This document shows positions 26,129-33,924 of a stretch of 64,000 nt of DNA, in pieces. The stretch's first letter is position 1; every line of letters starts with the position of its first letter. This DNA is from Gemmatimonadaceae bacterium (GTDB lineage: Bacteria > Gemmatimonadota > Gemmatimonadetes > Gemmatimonadales > Gemmatimonadaceae), in the NCBI GenBank assembly GCA_019752115.1, contig JAIEMN010000038.1, positions 1 through 64,000 on the forward strand. The letters run 5' to 3'. A program made the translations under genes and the position numbers. The notes below the pieces were generated by a model that searched no databases, was not told the DNA's origin, and saw only the letters and a program-made list of their open reading frames with translations.

Positions 26129-27157
26129 GTGACCGCTGCCCCGCCTCTTCCGTCACTGCCGGACGCCCTGCGGGCCCTTCGGCCGCTGCTCGCGGGCGGA
26201 GCGCCAGTACTCGATGGCCCGTCGCTCGAACGCCTGAGTCTGTCGGGCGGTGAGCCGCCGGTCATCGCGGCCTGTACCCCGCTCGAGCCCCCCGGCGCCC
26301 GCCGGCTCACGCCGGCCGCCGCACCGCTGGTTGGGGCGTTCCTCGATGGCGTGCAGCGGAGTCGACTGCTCGGACACGTCGGGCATGCCCCCGTCATTTT
26401 TGCGAGTGTGGCGGCCGCGATTCGCGAACGGGTGGACCGCCAGCTGCAGACGTGGCATGCGCCACGGGTGGCGCGGATGCTCCTCGTGGCGCGCGATCGC
26501 GTCGGTGAAGCCGCGTTTGCCCAGCTCGCCGAGAGTGGCCTGCCGGTGATTGATGCATCAGCCGCCGCCGGCAACGGACCGGTGCTGCTGCACCCCCATG
26601 CCCTGCGCGCCCGCGCCCTCGAACTGGTGGCACTGGAGCGCGAACGCCTGGAGCGCCAACTCGCCGCCGCCTGGGTCGCCGAGGCGGAGGGCCTGCACCC
26701 TGGCGCGGCCGCGTCACCCGACCCGTGGCTCTGGATCGACGGGGGCATCGCCGGCAATCTGGCCATCGATGCCGGCGCCCGCGCGTTTGGCGTGGTGAAG
26801 TCTCATACCACGCTCTACGGCGACGAGGCGGCCGTGTCCGCCGTGCTCTCGCTGCGGAGTGGCGAACGGTCGCCCGCGTTTCTCGTCGGGCACGCCGCGC
26901 GCCGGGCGGTCGCGAGCTGGTACCTGCGACTGCGCGATGGTGCGGCGGCCGATCCGCTCTTTGGCCTGGTGCGCGTCGAAGTGGCCCCGCCGGTGGCGGA
27001 CGCCGACTGGGAGGCCTTCACGGCGCACTGTGACCGGCTGTCAGCGGGCATTCTGCTGGAACGTGCGCCGCTCTCGCTCCCCGACGCGCGCTGGGATACG
27101 CTCAGCTACGGCGTGCACGCGGTTGAATCGTATCTGCAGGCCGTGCTCGGTGTCTGA
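26129..27157 (+). CDS. NurA-like nuclease candidate, partner of the HerA-like ATPase
   Basis: A 342-aa protein with no signal peptide. The second half has PWLWIDGGIAGNLAID with Asp204, then GVVKSH with Lys224, and a late FGLVRVEVAPP. This order (an acidic DG motif on a beta strand, a GVVK strand, and a VRVE strand near the end) resembles the RNase H-like NurA nuclease domain, whose first motif is DGS. The identification is mine and rests on these short motifs plus position: it is immediately before the HerA-like ATPase and in a cluster with SbcD and SbcC. GTG 26129 is chosen as the first start after the divergent gene. It could instead be an unrelated adaptor. Confidence 0.55.
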   Translation: MTAAPPLPSLPDALRALRPLLAGGAPVLDGPSLERLSLSGGEPPVIAACTPLEPPGARRLTPAAAPLVGAFLDGVQRSRLLGHVGHAPVIFASVAAAIRERVDRQLQTWHAPRVARMLLVARDRVGEAAFAQLAESGLPVIDASAAAGNGPVLLHPHALRARALELVALERERLERQLAAAWVAEAEGLHPGAAASPDPWLWIDGGIAGNLAIDAGARAFGVVKSHTTLYGDEAAVSAVLSLRSGERSPAFLVGHAARRAVASWYLRLRDGAAADPLFGLVRVEVAPPVADADWEAFTAHCDRLSAGILLERAPLSLPDARWDTLSYGVHAVESYLQAVLGV

Positions 27158-27196
27158 TCTGTCGTCCGCGGTTTTCCGCCTCTTCGGTAGCGCGCT

Positions 27197-29185
27197 GTGA
27201 CTGCTTCTCACGCATCCCCGACGCCCGTGAACCCCGCGCCACTGGGGCGGGTGGTTGCCACCGAGCGTCAGCCCAACACGCCGCACGCGTTTCATTTCTG
27301 GACCGCGCTCGATGCCCCCATCGGCATCGGGACGATCGTGCGGGTGGAGGGCACCATTCCGGTGGAGGCCGCCATCCCGCGCGTCTACGGCGTGGTCACC
27401 GAGGCGGTGAGCTACTCCGATGTGCAGTCGCCGCTGCATGATGTGCTGGGATACGACGGGGTGCCCGCCGATGGGCCGCCGGTGCCCACCGCGCGCACCG
27501 AGATCCGCCTCTACACCGCGCAGGTGCTGCGTCACGTGCCCGAAGAGCCGCTGCAGCCGGTGCCGATGGGTGCGGTCTATCTCGCCGACGATGCCGACGT
27601 GGCGGTGGCGCTGCGGATGGATGCCTATCTGCGCGGCGCGACGCCGACTGGTATTCCGATCGGTGTGTACAAGGCGGGGGGGATGCGCTCGCCGATCTTC
27701 GTGGATGCGGATTTTCTGGTGGGCCCCGAAGCGGCCCATCTCAACATCTCCGGTGTGTCGGGGCTCGCCACCAAGACGAGTGCCGTGGAGTGGTTGCTGC
27801 AGGCGACGTTCGCCCACTTTCCGGCCCATCGCGGCCGCATTGCGGCCGTCTGCTTCAACGTGAAGGGGCCGGACCTCTGCTTCCTCGATCAGCCAGGCCA
27901 GATCGACGATGCCGATCGCGAGTTGTACGACCTGCTGCAGGTGCCGGCCACGCCCTTCCAGCAGGTGCAGTACTTCGCCCCCTACACTGCACGCGGGCAC
28001 GCGCTCAATACGCTGCGTTCGCATCCCGATCTCGCCGAGTCGGTGACGCCGTTGACGTGGGGGCTCACCGAAGTGCTGCAGTTCGCCGAGGTGCTGCTCA
28101 ACAAGGATGATGTGGATGCCAAGGCCGACGCGCTGATCGATTTCATTCGGGAGCGCGTGGTGGGGCGCGACTTCACCGATCCGCGCTTCACCCGCACGCA
28201 CCGCGTGCAGAGCTTTGCCGATCTGGATGCGTGGTTCCGGGACGTGCTGCGCGTGCTGGAGGAATCCAATGGCGACACCTGGCGGACCCACCATGCGGCC
28301 ACGATCCGCAAGGTGCGCAACCGCCTGTCGAACCTCTCCACGCGCTGCGCCGGATTGGTGACGGACGACGGCCTGGCGTCGGATCTCCCCTTCGGGAGCT
28401 TTGCCGACCGCACGGTGTACGTGGTGGATGTCGCCAACGTGGAAGAGGACGCGCAGGATCTCGTCTTCGCGCGGGTCGTCTCCAAGTTGCGCGAGCATCT
28501 CGAGCGCCGCGATCTCGGCGTCGATCACGTCATCGTCTTTGTGGATGAGCTCAACAAGTATGCGCCGCATGACGGTCCGGACACCTACGTGCGCAAGATG
28601 CTGCTCGACATCGCGGAGCGCGGCCGCTACCTGGGCCTCGTGCTCTTCGGCGCCGAACAGTTTCGGTCGCAGGTGCATCGCCGCGTGACGGGCAATGCGG
28701 GGACCACGGTGTACGGGCGCATGGATGCCGACGAGCTCGCGCATCCCGGGTATCAGGTGCTGAGTCCCGCGGTGAAGGCGCGGCTCGCTACGCTCGACAA
28801 GGGGCAGCTGATGGTGCGGCATCCGCACTTCACGCAGCCCGTGTTCGTGCGCTTTCCGCGGCCGGCGGTGATGTCCGGGCGTACCGGTGTCGAACGCTAT
28901 CCGCAGGCCCCGGAGCCGACCGTCGCGCAGGCCGTGACCCGTGACCTGCGGCGGCTGGACGCCCGCGTGGAATTGGGGTGGGTGCAGCAGACCACGTTGC
29001 TCTACGATGAGCCGGTAGTGCTCGCGGCGCGCAATGCGGTGCTGCGGCTGCGCCCCGACGACGTGAAGGCGGCCTTCACGCGCGAGCTGGCGCGCCGCGC
29101 CCGGCCGACGGCCACGGAGGCCGAATCGGTGACGCCGCGTCCGCGCCCGCTGCGCGCCTTTACCCCCGACGAGTACGGTGGCTGA
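27197..29185 (+). CDS. HerA-like DNA translocase/ATPase (DUF87 type)
   Basis: A 662-aa FtsK/HerA-superfamily ATPase. The N-terminus is a HAS-barrel-like region (about 1-110). The P-loop is unusual, GVSGLATKTS at residues 186-195, with Thr where the last Gly of GxxGxGK normally sits, though KTS remains. Walker B is VIVFVDELNKYAP with D450 and E451, and the later region has LFGAEQFRSQVHRRVTG, which could provide the arginine finger. In archaea HerA drives DNA through NurA with Mre11-Rad50 in end resection. Here the same partners are neighbours. GTG 27197 is the start; the stop overlaps the next gene by 8 nt. Confidence 0.82.
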   Translation: MTASHASPTPVNPAPLGRVVATERQPNTPHAFHFWTALDAPIGIGTIVRVEGTIPVEAAIPRVYGVVTEAVSYSDVQSPLHDVLGYDGVPADGPPVPTARTEIRLYTAQVLRHVPEEPLQPVPMGAVYLADDADVAVALRMDAYLRGATPTGIPIGVYKAGGMRSPIFVDADFLVGPEAAHLNISGVSGLATKTSAVEWLLQATFAHFPAHRGRIAAVCFNVKGPDLCFLDQPGQIDDADRELYDLLQVPATPFQQVQYFAPYTARGHALNTLRSHPDLAESVTPLTWGLTEVLQFAEVLLNKDDVDAKADALIDFIRERVVGRDFTDPRFTRTHRVQSFADLDAWFRDVLRVLEESNGDTWRTHHAATIRKVRNRLSNLSTRCAGLVTDDGLASDLPFGSFADRTVYVVDVANVEEDAQDLVFARVVSKLREHLERRDLGVDHVIVFVDELNKYAPHDGPDTYVRKMLLDIAERGRYLGLVLFGAEQFRSQVHRRVTGNAGTTVYGRMDADELAHPGYQVLSPAVKARLATLDKGQLMVRHPHFTQPVFVRFPRPAVMSGRTGVERYPQAPEPTVAQAVTRDLRRLDARVELGWVQQTTLLYDEPVVLAARNAVLRLRPDDVKAAFTRELARRARPTATEAESVTPRPRPLRAFTPDEYGG

Positions 29186-30125
29186 ACGGCGCACGGCCAG
29201 CGCGGCTGGCGTCTGGGCCTGCCTCTGCGCAGTGCTCGTACCGGGCGCCGCCGTCTCTGCGCAGGGCGCGGCGACGGGGCCCGTCGCTCTCGTCGTGCGC
29301 CCCCGCGTGGGCGATACGCTGCGTCTGCAGGTGGAGCAGGCGGTCACGATGCGGGCGCGCCGTGGCGATGCCAGCTCGCCGGCCCTCGGCAGCCCGAGTA
29401 CGGATCGTCCGGCGCGCGGGAACGCGCCCGAGTACGGGCCACGCGCCGACCGTGCCCGCATGACGCGGGTGCAGCTGTACGCGCACTCGTTTGTGGAATC
29501 GAGTGACCTGCAGCGCACCACGCTCGTGGCGACGACCGACTCCATCGCTATGTGGGCGGGCGCGCCGCCCATTCCACCGGCCAGTGTGGACGCCGCCGAT
29601 CCGGCCTGGCAGCGCATGCCCCTCGCCGACGAGGCCCGGCGTGTGCGCGTCCAGGTGACCCCGGCGGGCGCGATGCGCATTGCCGACCCCCCGGCCGGCG
29701 CCCGGGATCTCGGTGCGACGCTGGGAAGCCTGCCGGGGCTGCTCCCCGAGGGGCCGGTTCGGACCGGCGCGACATGGCGGCGCGAGTTCCCGCTGCCGTC
29801 GCTCCCGCTCACCGGCTATCACACCGACGGCGTGGTGCAGGCAGAGCTGCGACTGGATTCGCTGACCCGGGGCGGGCGTGAGGCCTGGATCTCGATCACG
29901 GGGCGCCTGCGCCGCGACGGCGCCGCCCGGGAACTGCCGCCCGGGACGCGGGTGATCACGGCCGGCACCATTCGCGGCAGTATGCGCGTCGATCGGGTGC
30001 GTGCCTGGATCATGGACGCCACCACCGAGATGGACGTCGTCTCGGAGGTCGTGTCGGGGCCGGCCGCCCGCACCACCCCGATGCTCCTCGACCTCCGCAT
30101 CGAGCAGCGGGTGCGCGTCCGCTAA
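29178..30125 (+). CDS. Hypothetical secreted protein within the HerA/SbcCD cluster
   Basis: A 315-aa protein with an N-terminal signal peptide (ACLCAVLVPGAAVSAQG), predicted cleavage after VSA. The mature part has no recognised domain; it is rich in beta-type segments and Arg. GTG 29178 overlaps the HerA-like stop by 8 nt, suggesting translational coupling. An exported protein is odd between cytoplasmic DNA-repair genes, so its link to them may be only positional. Its stop codon TAA lies within the first, degenerate copy of a 12-bp tandem repeat. Confidence 0.7.
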   Translation: MAERRTASAAGVWACLCAVLVPGAAVSAQGAATGPVALVVRPRVGDTLRLQVEQAVTMRARRGDASSPALGSPSTDRPARGNAPEYGPRADRARMTRVQLYAHSFVESSDLQRTTLVATTDSIAMWAGAPPIPPASVDAADPAWQRMPLADEARRVRVQVTPAGAMRIADPPAGARDLGATLGSLPGLLPEGPVRTGATWRREFPLPSLPLTGYHTDGVVQAELRLDSLTRGGREAWISITGRLRRDGAARELPPGTRVITAGTIRGSMRVDRVRAWIMDATTEMDVVSEVVSGPAARTTPMLLDLRIEQRVRVR

Positions 30126-30190
30126 CGGGTCCGCGAACGCGTCCGCGAACGCGTCCGCGAACGCGTCCGCGAACGCGTCCGCGAACGCGT
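30119..30190. repeat. 12-bp tandem repeat, one degenerate plus five perfect copies
   Basis: The unit CCGCGAACGCGT occurs at 30131-30142, 30143-30154, 30155-30166, 30167-30178 and 30179-30190. A degenerate copy at 30119-30130 reads CCGCTAACGGGT and supplies the stop codon of the secreted protein gene. In the gene's frame each perfect unit would encode RERV, so a single G-to-T difference ends the protein. Confidence 0.95.
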
Positions 30191-30256
30191 CCGCGCAGGC
30201 ATTCGGCCGCATGATCAGCCCGGTGGCGCCGAGCGCCCCCCCGCTATCTTCCGGCC

Positions 30257-31453
30257 ATGCGCCTCGTGCACCTCGCCGACCTGCATCTCGGCTTCCGCCA
30301 ATACCAGCGACTCACGCCCACCGGGATCAATCAGCGTGAGGCGGATGTGGCGGCAACCGTGCAGCGGGCGGCGCAACAGATCGTGGCGCTCGCCCCCGAG
30401 CTCATCGTCATCGGCGGGGACATCTTCCACTCGGTGCGGCCGTCGAATCCGGCCATCCTGCACGCGTACCGCGTGTTCAACCTGTTGCGCGAGGCCTTGC
30501 CGGATACGCCGATCGTCATGGTCGCCGGCAACCACGATGCCCCGCGGACCGCGGAAACCGGGTGCATCCTGCGCCTCTTCCGTGAGATTGGCGTGTATGT
30601 GGCCGATGCGAAGGCGGAGCTGTTCACCTTCGCCGATCGGTCTCTGGCCGTGCTCGCGGTCCCCGACGTGCCGGGCATCGATCGCCCGCCACTGCTCCCC
30701 CCGGAGGGGTACGAGCACACGGTGCTGCTGCTGCATGGTGAAGTCGCTGGTGTGTTGCCGGCCCATGCGGCGCCGGCGGATCGTGCGGCCATCGAGATTC
30801 CGCCCGACGAACTGCACGCCGACCGCTGGAGCTACGTCGCGCTCGGGCATTACCACGTGTATCGGGAAGTCGCGCCCGGCGCTTACTACAGCGGGTCACT
30901 CGACTACACGAGCAGCAATCCGTGGGGCGAACTGCGCGAGGAGCGGGAGCACCGGGTCCCCGGCAAGGGATTCATCGAACACGATCTGGTATCGGGGGCG
31001 CATCACTTTCACCCGGTGCCGCCCGCGCGTCCGCTGCTCGACCTTGAGCCGATCGATGCCAGCGGCATGAGTGCCGCCGATCTCGACAAGGCGATTCTGG
31101 CCCGCGTGGACACGGCACCGGGGGGCATCGACGATCGCGTCGTGCGCGTCACCGTCCGCAACGTGCCGCGGCACATCGTTCGCGAACTCGATCACGCCGC
31201 GCTGCGCGACTATCGCAAGCGCGCCATGCACTTCCATCTCGATGCCCGTCGCCCCGACCCCATTGCCCGTCGCCGCTCGGGGGACGGCGGGCCGGGGCGT
31301 CGCCAGACGTTGCACGAGGTGCTCGCGGAACGGCTGCGCGAGCGCGTGCTGCCCGCGGGCGTGGAACGGGAACCGCTCGTGACGCTCGGGCTGCAGTATC
31401 TGCAGCAGGCGGAAGACGCGGCCATGGCCGCGATGCCCGTGCTGGAGGGCTGA
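30257..31453 (+). CDS. sbcD: SbcD/Mre11-type DNA exonuclease
   Basis: The nuclease subunit of the SbcCD complex, which opens hairpins and processes DNA ends with manganese. Metal-binding motifs of the calcineurin-type phosphoesterase are all present: HLADLHLG, VIGGDIFH, AGNHDAPR, LLHGEV and LGHYHVY. The length of 398 aa is normal. It is 2 nt before sbcC and downstream of the HerA/NurA-like pair. ATG 30257 follows GCCAT with no strong ribosome site; translation may depend on the upstream tandem repeat region. Confidence 0.92.
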   Translation: MRLVHLADLHLGFRQYQRLTPTGINQREADVAATVQRAAQQIVALAPELIVIGGDIFHSVRPSNPAILHAYRVFNLLREALPDTPIVMVAGNHDAPRTAETGCILRLFREIGVYVADAKAELFTFADRSLAVLAVPDVPGIDRPPLLPPEGYEHTVLLLHGEVAGVLPAHAAPADRAAIEIPPDELHADRWSYVALGHYHVYREVAPGAYYSGSLDYTSSNPWGELREEREHRVPGKGFIEHDLVSGAHHFHPVPPARPLLDLEPIDASGMSAADLDKAILARVDTAPGGIDDRVVRVTVRNVPRHIVRELDHAALRDYRKRAMHFHLDARRPDPIARRRSGDGGPGRRQTLHEVLAERLRERVLPAGVEREPLVTLGLQYLQQAEDAAMAAMPVLEG

Positions 31454-31455
31454 GC

Positions 31456-33924
31456 GTGCGTCTTCTCTCGCTCCGTCTGCAGAACTTCCGGCAGCACGCC
31501 GACACCACGCTCACCTTCGAGCGCGGCCTTACCGGCATCATCGGGCCCAACGGCTCCGGCAAGAGCACGATTCTCGAAGCCATCGCCTGGGCGCTGTATG
31601 GCAACCCGGCGGCGCGCGGTACGCGTGACTCGATTCGCTTCACCGGTGCGGCCCCCCGCGCGTCGGTGAAGGTCGAGCTGGTCTTCGAGCTGGCGAACCA
31701 TCGGTATCGCGTGGTGCGCGGCCTGACAAACGCCGAGTGCTTTCTCGATGGTGCCGACACGCCCATCGCGAACACGATCACCGGCGTGACCGAGCTGCTG
31801 CAGCGTCGGCTGGGGATGACGCGCACGGAGTTCTTTCACACGTACTTCACGGAGCAGAAAGAACTCGACGTCATGAAGACGCTCGGGCCGGCCGATCGCG
31901 CGCGCTTCCTCTCGCGCGTGCTCGGCTACGATCGCCTGAGTGGGGCGCAGGAGCTCGCGCGGGAACGGCGACGGGCACTCGTGGCCGAGATCAACGGCGT
32001 GCGCCAGGGGATGCCCGATCCCGATGCGATCTGGCGGGCCATGGCCGATGCCGAAGCGCGCGTGGCGGCCGGTCGGTTGCGGGCGGAGCAGGCCGTGCAG
32101 GCGCGTACCGTGTCCGCCGAGGCGCTCGACGCCGTGGCGCCGCAGTGGCGCGATGCGCAGGCGCAGCGGGAGCAGGCGCAGCAGCTGCTGTCGGAGCTGC
32201 GCGTGGCGGAGAACGATGCGCAAACCGCGGCGCGTGACATCGAGCGGCTGGAGCGCGATCTCGCCACGATTGCGGCGGCGCATGCCGATCTCGTGCCGGT
32301 CCGCGAACAGCTGCAGGCACTCCATCCGGTCCGCGAGGCGCTGCGCCAGCTCGATGAGCTGGCGGCCGCTGAATCGGGGCGCTTGGCCCTGCTCGAGCGC
32401 GTGAAGGGGCTGGCCGAGGAAGAGGCCAAGCTCACCGAACGCGCGAGTCGCCTCGAAAGCGCGCCCGCGCTGGAGCGGGAAACGCAGCAGCAACTGCAGG
32501 CGTTGCGGAACGCGCTCGCCGAAACCGAGCGGCAGCTCGATGAAGAACGCACCGCATGGGCGCGTGATCGGCAGGAGGCCGAAACCCGTCTCGACGCGCT
32601 CCGCACGCAGTACACCGAACTGGCCGAGCAGCGTGACACACTCGAGGGGCTCGGCGAAGACAGTCCGTGCCCGACCTGCAATCGCCCGCTCGGTGCGAGC
32701 TATCAGGGGGTGCTCGACCTCGTGCGCGAGCAGCTCGAAACCGTGCGCATCGATGGGAACTACTATCGCCAGCGCGTTGAGCAGCTGAGCGCCGTCCCGG
32801 CCACGGTCGAGGGGCTCGATGCCAGCCGACGCACGCAGCAGCAGGAGCTGGCGGCCACCGAACGACGCTACGCGAAGATCCAGGCGGCGCTGGCCGAGGC
32901 GGCCACCGTGGCGGAGCAGCGGGTGCGTGTCACGGAGCGCATGGCGGAGGCGACGCGTCAGCTGGCCGAGGTCCCGGCCGGATATGATGCCGACCGCCAC
33001 GCGGCGCTTCGCCGCGAGGTCGCCGAGCTGCAGGCGCTCGAAACGCGGTCGGCCCGATTGAGCGCGCTCCTCGAGCGTGAGCCTCAGGTGCGGGCCGAGC
33101 AGACGCGGGCGTTGGCGGCGCAGGAGGCGGCCCGCACGCGCGTGCTGGCGCTGCAGGATCAGCACGGCAGCCTCGGGATCGATGAGCCGGCCTACCTGCG
33201 GGTGCGGGAGACGTACGAAGCGGCCGCCGCGGAAGCGCGCCGCGCCGAGCTCGAAGCGGTGGCCGCGACGGCCGAAGCGGAGCGGGCCCGGATGGCGCTC
33301 GATGCCGCCGAGCACGGGCGGCGCGAACTGGCGCGACTGCAAGGCGCGCTGGATGTGCTCGAAACCGAGAAGCGCCTGCATGATGAACTCGATCGGGCGC
33401 TGACCGATCTGCGGACCGATCTCAACTTCCAGCTGCGTCCCGAGCTCGCCGAGATCGCCAGCGGCTTTCTCGCCGACCTCACCGACGGGCGGTACAATTC
33501 GTTGGAGTTCGACGAGGAATATCGCCTGCTGGTGATCGAGAACGGCGTGCCGAAGCCGGTGATCTCGGGCGGTGAGGAGGACCTGTGCAACCTGGTGCTG
33601 CGGCTGGCGATTTCGCAGATGATCGCCGAACGGGCCGGGCAGGCCTTCTCCTTGCTGATCCTCGACGAGGTCTTCGGATCGCTCGACGAAACGCGACGGG
33701 CGAATGTGGTGGAGTTGCTGCGGAGGCTCAATGATCGCTTCGAACAGGTCATCGTGATCACGCACATCGAACAGGTGCGTGAGGGGCTCGATCGTCTCGT
33801 GCAGGTGCGCTTCGACGAGGCGCGCGGGTGCAGCGTGGTCTCGACCGCCACCGGCCGGGCAGCGGCCGATGAGGCGCTCATCGAGCCGGAGCCGTTGGTC
33901 GATTCGCTCTTCGCCGGAGCCTGA
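31456..33924 (+). CDS. sbcC: SbcC/Rad50-type SMC-like ATPase
   Basis: The ATPase partner of SbcD, 822 aa and shorter than the E. coli protein (about 1050). The N-terminal Walker A is GIIGPNGSGKST, the long coiled coil runs from about 170 to 660, and the zinc hook CPTC is at residues 405-408. The ABC signature is VISGGEEDLCNLVLRLA and Walker B is LLILDEVFGSLD. GTG 31456 starts 2 nt after the sbcD stop, a typical coupled arrangement. The arms are shorter than in E. coli, which would give a shorter tether. Confidence 0.95.
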   Translation: MRLLSLRLQNFRQHADTTLTFERGLTGIIGPNGSGKSTILEAIAWALYGNPAARGTRDSIRFTGAAPRASVKVELVFELANHRYRVVRGLTNAECFLDGADTPIANTITGVTELLQRRLGMTRTEFFHTYFTEQKELDVMKTLGPADRARFLSRVLGYDRLSGAQELARERRRALVAEINGVRQGMPDPDAIWRAMADAEARVAAGRLRAEQAVQARTVSAEALDAVAPQWRDAQAQREQAQQLLSELRVAENDAQTAARDIERLERDLATIAAAHADLVPVREQLQALHPVREALRQLDELAAAESGRLALLERVKGLAEEEAKLTERASRLESAPALERETQQQLQALRNALAETERQLDEERTAWARDRQEAETRLDALRTQYTELAEQRDTLEGLGEDSPCPTCNRPLGASYQGVLDLVREQLETVRIDGNYYRQRVEQLSAVPATVEGLDASRRTQQQELAATERRYAKIQAALAEAATVAEQRVRVTERMAEATRQLAEVPAGYDADRHAALRREVAELQALETRSARLSALLEREPQVRAEQTRALAAQEAARTRVLALQDQHGSLGIDEPAYLRVRETYEAAAAEARRAELEAVAATAEAERARMALDAAEHGRRELARLQGALDVLETEKRLHDELDRALTDLRTDLNFQLRPELAEIASGFLADLTDGRYNSLEFDEEYRLLVIENGVPKPVISGGEEDLCNLVLRLAISQMIAERAGQAFSLLILDEVFGSLDETRRANVVELLRRLNDRFEQVIVITHIEQVREGLDRLVQVRFDEARGCSVVSTATGRAAADEALIEPEPLVDSLFAGA

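Follow-up and report, generated by a model that had tools for sequence, protein, structure and literature searches.

Does a bacterial chromosome that carries the genes for NurA, HerA, Mre11 and Rad50 side by side encode a joint machine for the processing of broken DNA ends, or separate functions that share a locus? The four genes are found in a window of 64,000 nucleotides (the whole stretch of DNA analyzed) from contig JAIEMN010000038.1 of a Gemmatimonadaceae bacterium. In Deinococcus radiodurans the NurA-HerA pair carries out end resection, and its key residues are D53, K201 and R309 of NurA, and K175, T176, D487 and E488 of HerA (PMC9960219). According to the published view, the few bacteria that have NurA-HerA, e.g. 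those of Deinococcus-Thermus, lack RecBCD (PMC9960219). Whether HerA-NurA acts in resection or in defence is disputed; an antiviral role has been argued for the archaeal proteins, and HerA-NurA of T. kodakarensis, which cuts both strands, has been argued not to resect (PMC12977600). From the analyses presented here we conclude that the four-gene set for broken-DNA-end processing in the chromosome of this soil-type bacterium is real and deeply conserved.

Results

Architecture of the locus

A sequence-only reading of the window had proposed four open reading frames encoding NurA, HerA, Mre11 and Rad50, all of which were found on the plus strand where it had placed them; these are conserved genes rather than chance reading frames. 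The features of the locus are the following:

26129-27157, plus strand, nurA (342 aa, GTG start)
27197-29185, plus strand, herA (662 aa, GTG start)
29178-30125, plus strand, gene of the DUF6263 family (315 aa)
30114-30195, no strand, 12-bp tandem repeat CGCGTCCGCGAA (6.8 copies, TRF)
30257-31453, plus strand, mre11/sbcD (398 aa, ATG start)
31456-33924, plus strand, rad50/sbcC (822 aa, GTG start)

The common direction of the genes had been read correctly, but the overlaps of a few bases described among the four named genes are not present: nurA and herA are separated by 39 bp, herA and mre11 by 1,071 bp, and mre11 and rad50 by 2 bp. The list of four was also incomplete, given that it overlooked the DUF6263 gene placed between herA and mre11; this gene shares 8 bp with herA, and a gap of 131 bp separates it from mre11. 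The 12-bp repeat covers the last bases of the DUF6263 gene and extends into this gap. Scans of this GC-rich stretch for promoters and terminators gave no informative signal, and no sigma-70-like site was found.

The family PF19777 (DUF6263) was matched by 20 of the 31 members of the protein family encoded by the intervening gene. The protein has a signal-like N-terminus, and its AlphaFold2 model (pLDDT 81) shows a beta-sheet fold for which the best Foldseek match is a beta-sheet of the ApoB/vitellogenin type; it is thus predicted to be an exported beta-sheet protein, without evident link to DNA or repair. A role as a repair protein was considered and ruled out, because the fold resembles lipid-binding beta-sheets. 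The gene lies between herA and mre11 across Gemmatimonadales, with two tandem copies in some loci (L125, L132).

The 26129-27157 product is a predicted bacterial-type NurA nuclease

As a single sequence, the NurA candidate showed no match in Pfam even at E=10, and none in NCBIfam, PADLOC or PHROGs; likewise, PF09376 had no match in a scan of the window's own genome. The direct comparison with PF09376 that had been suggested for this protein was in consequence negative, and its identity as NurA was established by profiles and structure. PF09376 reached 20.0 bits, just below the cut-off of 21, with more distant relatives encoded in the same gene cluster, and these were matched by D. radiodurans NurA (drNurA) with E=7e-21. 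A profile built from 61 relatives of the window type (A3) gave drNurA (E=3e-4) and the Thermotoga NurA TM1739 (E=0.0018) as its top two PDB matches, and a broader profile (A1) gave E=1.8e-25 and E=5.9e-16, respectively. The structural modelling that had also been suggested returned a nuclease fold (AlphaFold2, pLDDT 90.8), and the alternative outcome, a non-nuclease fold, did not occur. Foldseek paired the model with drNurA (7f6d_G, E=8e-13) and TM1739 (E=2e-9), and VIA-align gave Z=20.3 over 280 residues for drNurA, 19.2 for TM1739 and 14.3 for NurA of S. solfataricus, whereas other RNase H folds (Argonaute, endonuclease V) did not exceed Z=9.8, with the exception of the defence complex TdpAB (Z=13.9). 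In these comparisons the RNase H-like fold of NurA covers most of the chain.

The putative catalytic residues are D73, E175, D204, K224 and R321, and the alignment places D53, K201 and R309 of drNurA at D73, K224 and R321. Each of the five was kept in at least 59 of the 61 relatives, and the Asp204/Lys224 site singled out from the sequence corresponds exactly to invariant residues of the NurA alignments. It could be argued that the protein is a nuclease-dead structural partner of HerA, given that N replaces D at position 73 in 2 of the 61 relatives and that Pfam does not match the window protein directly; the presence of the five residues in the window protein and in nearly all of its relatives makes this very improbable. 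Profiles, predicted fold and active-site residues together bear out the NurA identity, and nuclease activity is predicted.

HerA and Mre11-Rad50

The 27197-29185 product is a bacterial-type HerA, predicted to act as a hexameric ATPase/translocase. The protein showed nothing above the cut-off in Pfam and a weak HerA match in NCBIfam. In a phmmer search of the PDB the sole match was D. radiodurans HerA (7f6d_B, E=2.1e-45), aligned to residues 16-293 and 338-565 and spanning the N-terminal HAS-barrel region and the RecA-like core; this match and the motifs bear out the HerA assignment. The P-loop had been described as atypical, but it is normal for a bacterial-type HerA: the segment NISGVSGLATKTS of the window protein (P-loop, SGVSGLATKTS) has the same form as NISGISGVATKTS of D. 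radiodurans HerA (P-loop, SGISGVATKTS), in which the lysine and the threonine are the functional K175 and T176 (PMC9960219), and since its own lysine and threonine correspond to these, the window P-loop represents the family norm. The Walker A residues K193-T194, the catalytic acid D226 and the Walker B residues D450-E451 were invariant in 16 diverse relatives (alignment A2). The PADLOC matches to mad8 and mad3 were read as generic ATPase similarity.

The products of the genes at 30257 and 31456 are intact Mre11 and Rad50 (SbcCD). Mre11 was recognized by Metallophos (Pfam, E=1.4e-9), by Mre11/SbcD models and by PDB Mre11 matches, and all its phosphoesterase motifs were found (HLADLHLG, GGDIFH, GNHD, LLHG and GHYH). 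In Rad50 the Walker A, the zinc hook CPTC, the signature and the Walker B were all found. The window's own genome contains one Mre11 match; therefore, this pair appears to be the only SbcCD of the cell. Among the distant members of the class that have the order herA-mre11-rad50-nurA (see below), at least G017 encodes a second, separate SbcD at another place in its genome.

Distribution and gene order

HerA was present in 102 of the 150 genomes sampled in the phylum (about two thirds), after the removal of one spurious match (G019, 22.7 bits, with an internal stop), a genome in which the absence of herA was confirmed by profile. A genome-wide scan yielded 80 loci, mostly from Gemmatimonadota, with some from Armatimonadota and Cyanobacteria/Gastranaerophilales. 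Among the 45 informative loci, i.e. those with enough flank, the order nurA-herA-mre11-rad50 was observed in 40, mostly from Gemmatimonadota and also from Armatimonadota. The four genes are thus adjacent on one strand in relatives, with a fifth gene intervening in the window, and different orders of Gemmatimonadota share this arrangement. The conservation of neighbours in related genomes, on which the earlier reading depended, was therefore confirmed. In more distant relatives, either nurA comes first or the order is the archaeal-like herA-mre11-rad50-nurA, the latter in distant members of the class (loci L063, L064, L065). Upstream of the locus a thymidine kinase, a DEAD-box protein and an aminotransferase recur, and downstream an acetyltransferase, a pterin synthase and FolE (names read from the window reading frames). 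Since the same flanking genes recur, this is a vertically inherited core locus and not a defence island.

In five loci from Cyanobacteria and Gastranaerophilales (L148, L154, L155, L157, L158) a HerA of the window type is encoded with no recognizable nurA, mre11 or rad50 alongside.

The nurA-herA pair has been cleanly lost

Profile searches detected neither nurA nor herA in several genomes of the window's genus and family, whereas mre11, rad50, the DUF6263 gene (where present) and all the flanks were still in place. In nucleotide alignments approximately 3.0-3.2 kb were missing, which is the length of nurA plus herA, and one of these genomes is a single 4.6-Mb contig, which excludes an assembly gap as the explanation. 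No genome tested with both profiles had kept nurA in the absence of herA; six genomes keep herA-mre11-rad50 with no detectable nurA. The clean absence of the pair from congeners that keep DUF6263-mre11-rad50 indicates that nurA-herA is a separable module. The joint machine proposed from gene order and coupling is hence sustained as regards the conserved neighbours, but its unity was overstated: nurA-herA has disappeared as a unit from loci that keep mre11-rad50, nurA alone is lost in the six genomes mentioned, and the gene of an unrelated, putatively exported protein stands in the middle.

In the small genome G028 (1.8 Mb; locus L234), which carries RecC, nurA-herA has been lost and rad50 is broken into two reading frames that overlap; G246 and G253, small genomes of a similar kind, likewise have RecC and no herA.

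Loss of the pair is associated with RecBCD

Besides NurA-HerA-SbcCD, the window genome encodes a complete RecC-RecB-RecD at another site (L171:2440-10001). This coexistence contradicts the published rule that bacteria with NurA-HerA lack RecBCD, and many genomes, that of the window included, retain both machines.

One other nuclease family was tested before RecC was chosen. PF12705, a general nuclease domain of RecB/AddAB, showed a strong negative association with HerA in the phylum as a whole (p=2e-9), a signal confounded by phylogeny; within the window's family the association was not significant (p=0.09), and strong PF12705 matches alone, which are mostly AddAB, showed no association with HerA. 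For these reasons it was replaced by the RecC-specific PF17946. In a first sample of the window's family, RecC was present in 6/6 genomes without herA and in 8/48 with it. On the Mre11-Rad50 tree, a model in which the loss of herA depends on RecC, and which assumes that herA is lost and never regained, was better than the independent model (p=1.5e-4, or p=7e-4 when the counterexample G013 was included). By parsimony herA changes state six times, with G013 accounting for one of these changes, and a conservative independent-pairs test pointed in the same direction with too few pairs for significance. Among the high-quality genomes of the family (179 in all), RecC was present in 14 of the 18 without herA and in 16 of the 87 with herA (RecC+/RecC-, 14/4 and 16/71; Fisher, 2.3e-6). 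The four high-quality exceptions, herA-less and RecC-negative, comprise two with an AddAB-like pair and two with neither; neither RecC nor a full AddAB was detected in the herA-less genomes G013, G038, G043, G222 and G241. The repeated loss of nurA-herA, mostly in relatives that have RecBCD (or AddAB), suggests that both machines do the same job.

Discussion

The best explanation for the locus, which we consider likely, is a DNA-end resection machine composed of NurA-HerA and Mre11-Rad50, in which the NurA-HerA half is replaceable by RecBCD. It is supported by the families to which the proteins belong, the predicted fold, the catalytic residues, the conservation of gene order, the clean disappearance of the pair from some genomes and the statistical association of this loss with RecBCD. 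By homology, Mre11-Rad50 would recognize and open broken or blocked DNA ends, the HerA hexamer would then pump the duplex into the NurA dimer, and this dimer would degrade it, trimming the 5' strand and leaving a 3' single strand for RecA. The driving of duplex into the NurA dimer by HerA, and the 3' tail formed after end opening by Mre11-Rad50, are taken from the work on D. radiodurans (PMC9960219) and Sulfolobus (PMC4351679); from these systems we infer the NurA-HerA complex, its activity and strand polarity, the joint action with Mre11-Rad50 and a single transcript. The NurA-HerA half would do work that RecBCD can also do in this lineage, and the pair would thus be dispensable where RecBCD is present. 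In its evolutionary form, plausible if not quite probable, the proposal is that Gemmatimonadales ancestrally resected the ends of double-strand breaks with NurA-HerA coupled to Mre11-Rad50, that RecBCD, where gained, took over this work and nurA-herA was repeatedly and cleanly deleted with mre11-rad50 left behind, and that the window genome has been caught with both.

The same data could be explained by two independent modules sharing a locus, with SbcCD cleaving hairpins and blocked ends and NurA-HerA acting separately, without physical or sequential cooperation. The loss of nurA-herA as a block without mre11-rad50 agrees with this, as do the unrelated DUF6263 gene, which stays beside mre11-rad50 where the pair is lost, and the Thermus nurA-herA pair, which has no DNA-metabolism neighbours (PMC5448004). 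However, the four genes stand together across families and in Armatimonadota, and distant Gemmatimonadota have all four in the archaeal-like order, which means that the grouping outlives rearrangement; we give independent modules a modest chance. Alternatively, NurA-HerA could degrade invading DNA ends and the cluster could be a defence system. HerA has known partners in defence, the T. kodakarensis enzyme cuts both strands (PMC12977600), and TdpAB is among the structural neighbours of NurA (Z=13.9). RecBCD, linked here to the loss of the pair, also destroys phage DNA (PMC5218532), and an antiviral role has been argued for archaeal HerA-NurA; the RecBCD link therefore supports overlapping function and does not separate repair from defence. 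Against an antiviral nuclease, the locus is core, syntenic and vertically inherited, a location that argues for housekeeping, it is present in about two thirds of the sampled genomes of the phylum, the PADLOC matches are weak or of generic ATPase type, and there are no phage-family matches in PHROGs. An antiviral role is on this basis improbable.

The resection machine proposed here is closest to NurA-HerA of D. radiodurans (PDB 7F6D, 7WRW, 7WRX): both proteins are homologous over nearly their full length (with approximately 20% identity for NurA), the pair is the same, and the P-loop form and the key residues match. In contrast with that system, the window pair is joined to mre11-rad50, and it occurs in a genome with RecBCD, a machine reported to be missing from the Deinococcus-Thermus phylum (PMC9960219). 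The archaeal operon herA-mre11-rad50-nurA (Sulfolobus islandicus, Thermococcus) comprises the same four functions on one strand, and D58, E116 and D133 of S. islandicus NurA correspond in kind to D73, E175 and D204; it differs in that nurA is last there and first in the window, which has the extra DUF6263 gene and sequences of bacterial type. Each of the four genes is essential in S. islandicus (PMC4351679), while some of the species studied here lack the pair. A bacterial precedent exists in Oceanithermus profundus, where sbcD-sbcC lie downstream of a herA homologue (PMC5448004), so that the association of SbcCD with HerA/NurA to which the earlier reading drew attention is real but not unique; that case concerns a single genus of Thermales, while the arrangement of the window extends across orders of Gemmatimonadota and to Armatimonadota.

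A literature search for HerA in Gemmatimonadota returned only unrelated papers, and as far as the literature searched shows, the phylum-scale conservation, the coexistence with RecBCD and the repeated RecBCD-linked loss are new. A phylum-wide core locus with such losses widens the known range of bacterial NurA-HerA, and the question of resection versus defence (PMC12977600) could be tested in close relatives that differ in the presence of the pair. In two of the loci without nurA, a small open reading frame of 169-194 aa was observed upstream of herA (L072:2766-3350, L073:3566-4075), whose product is a possible replacement partner for NurA.
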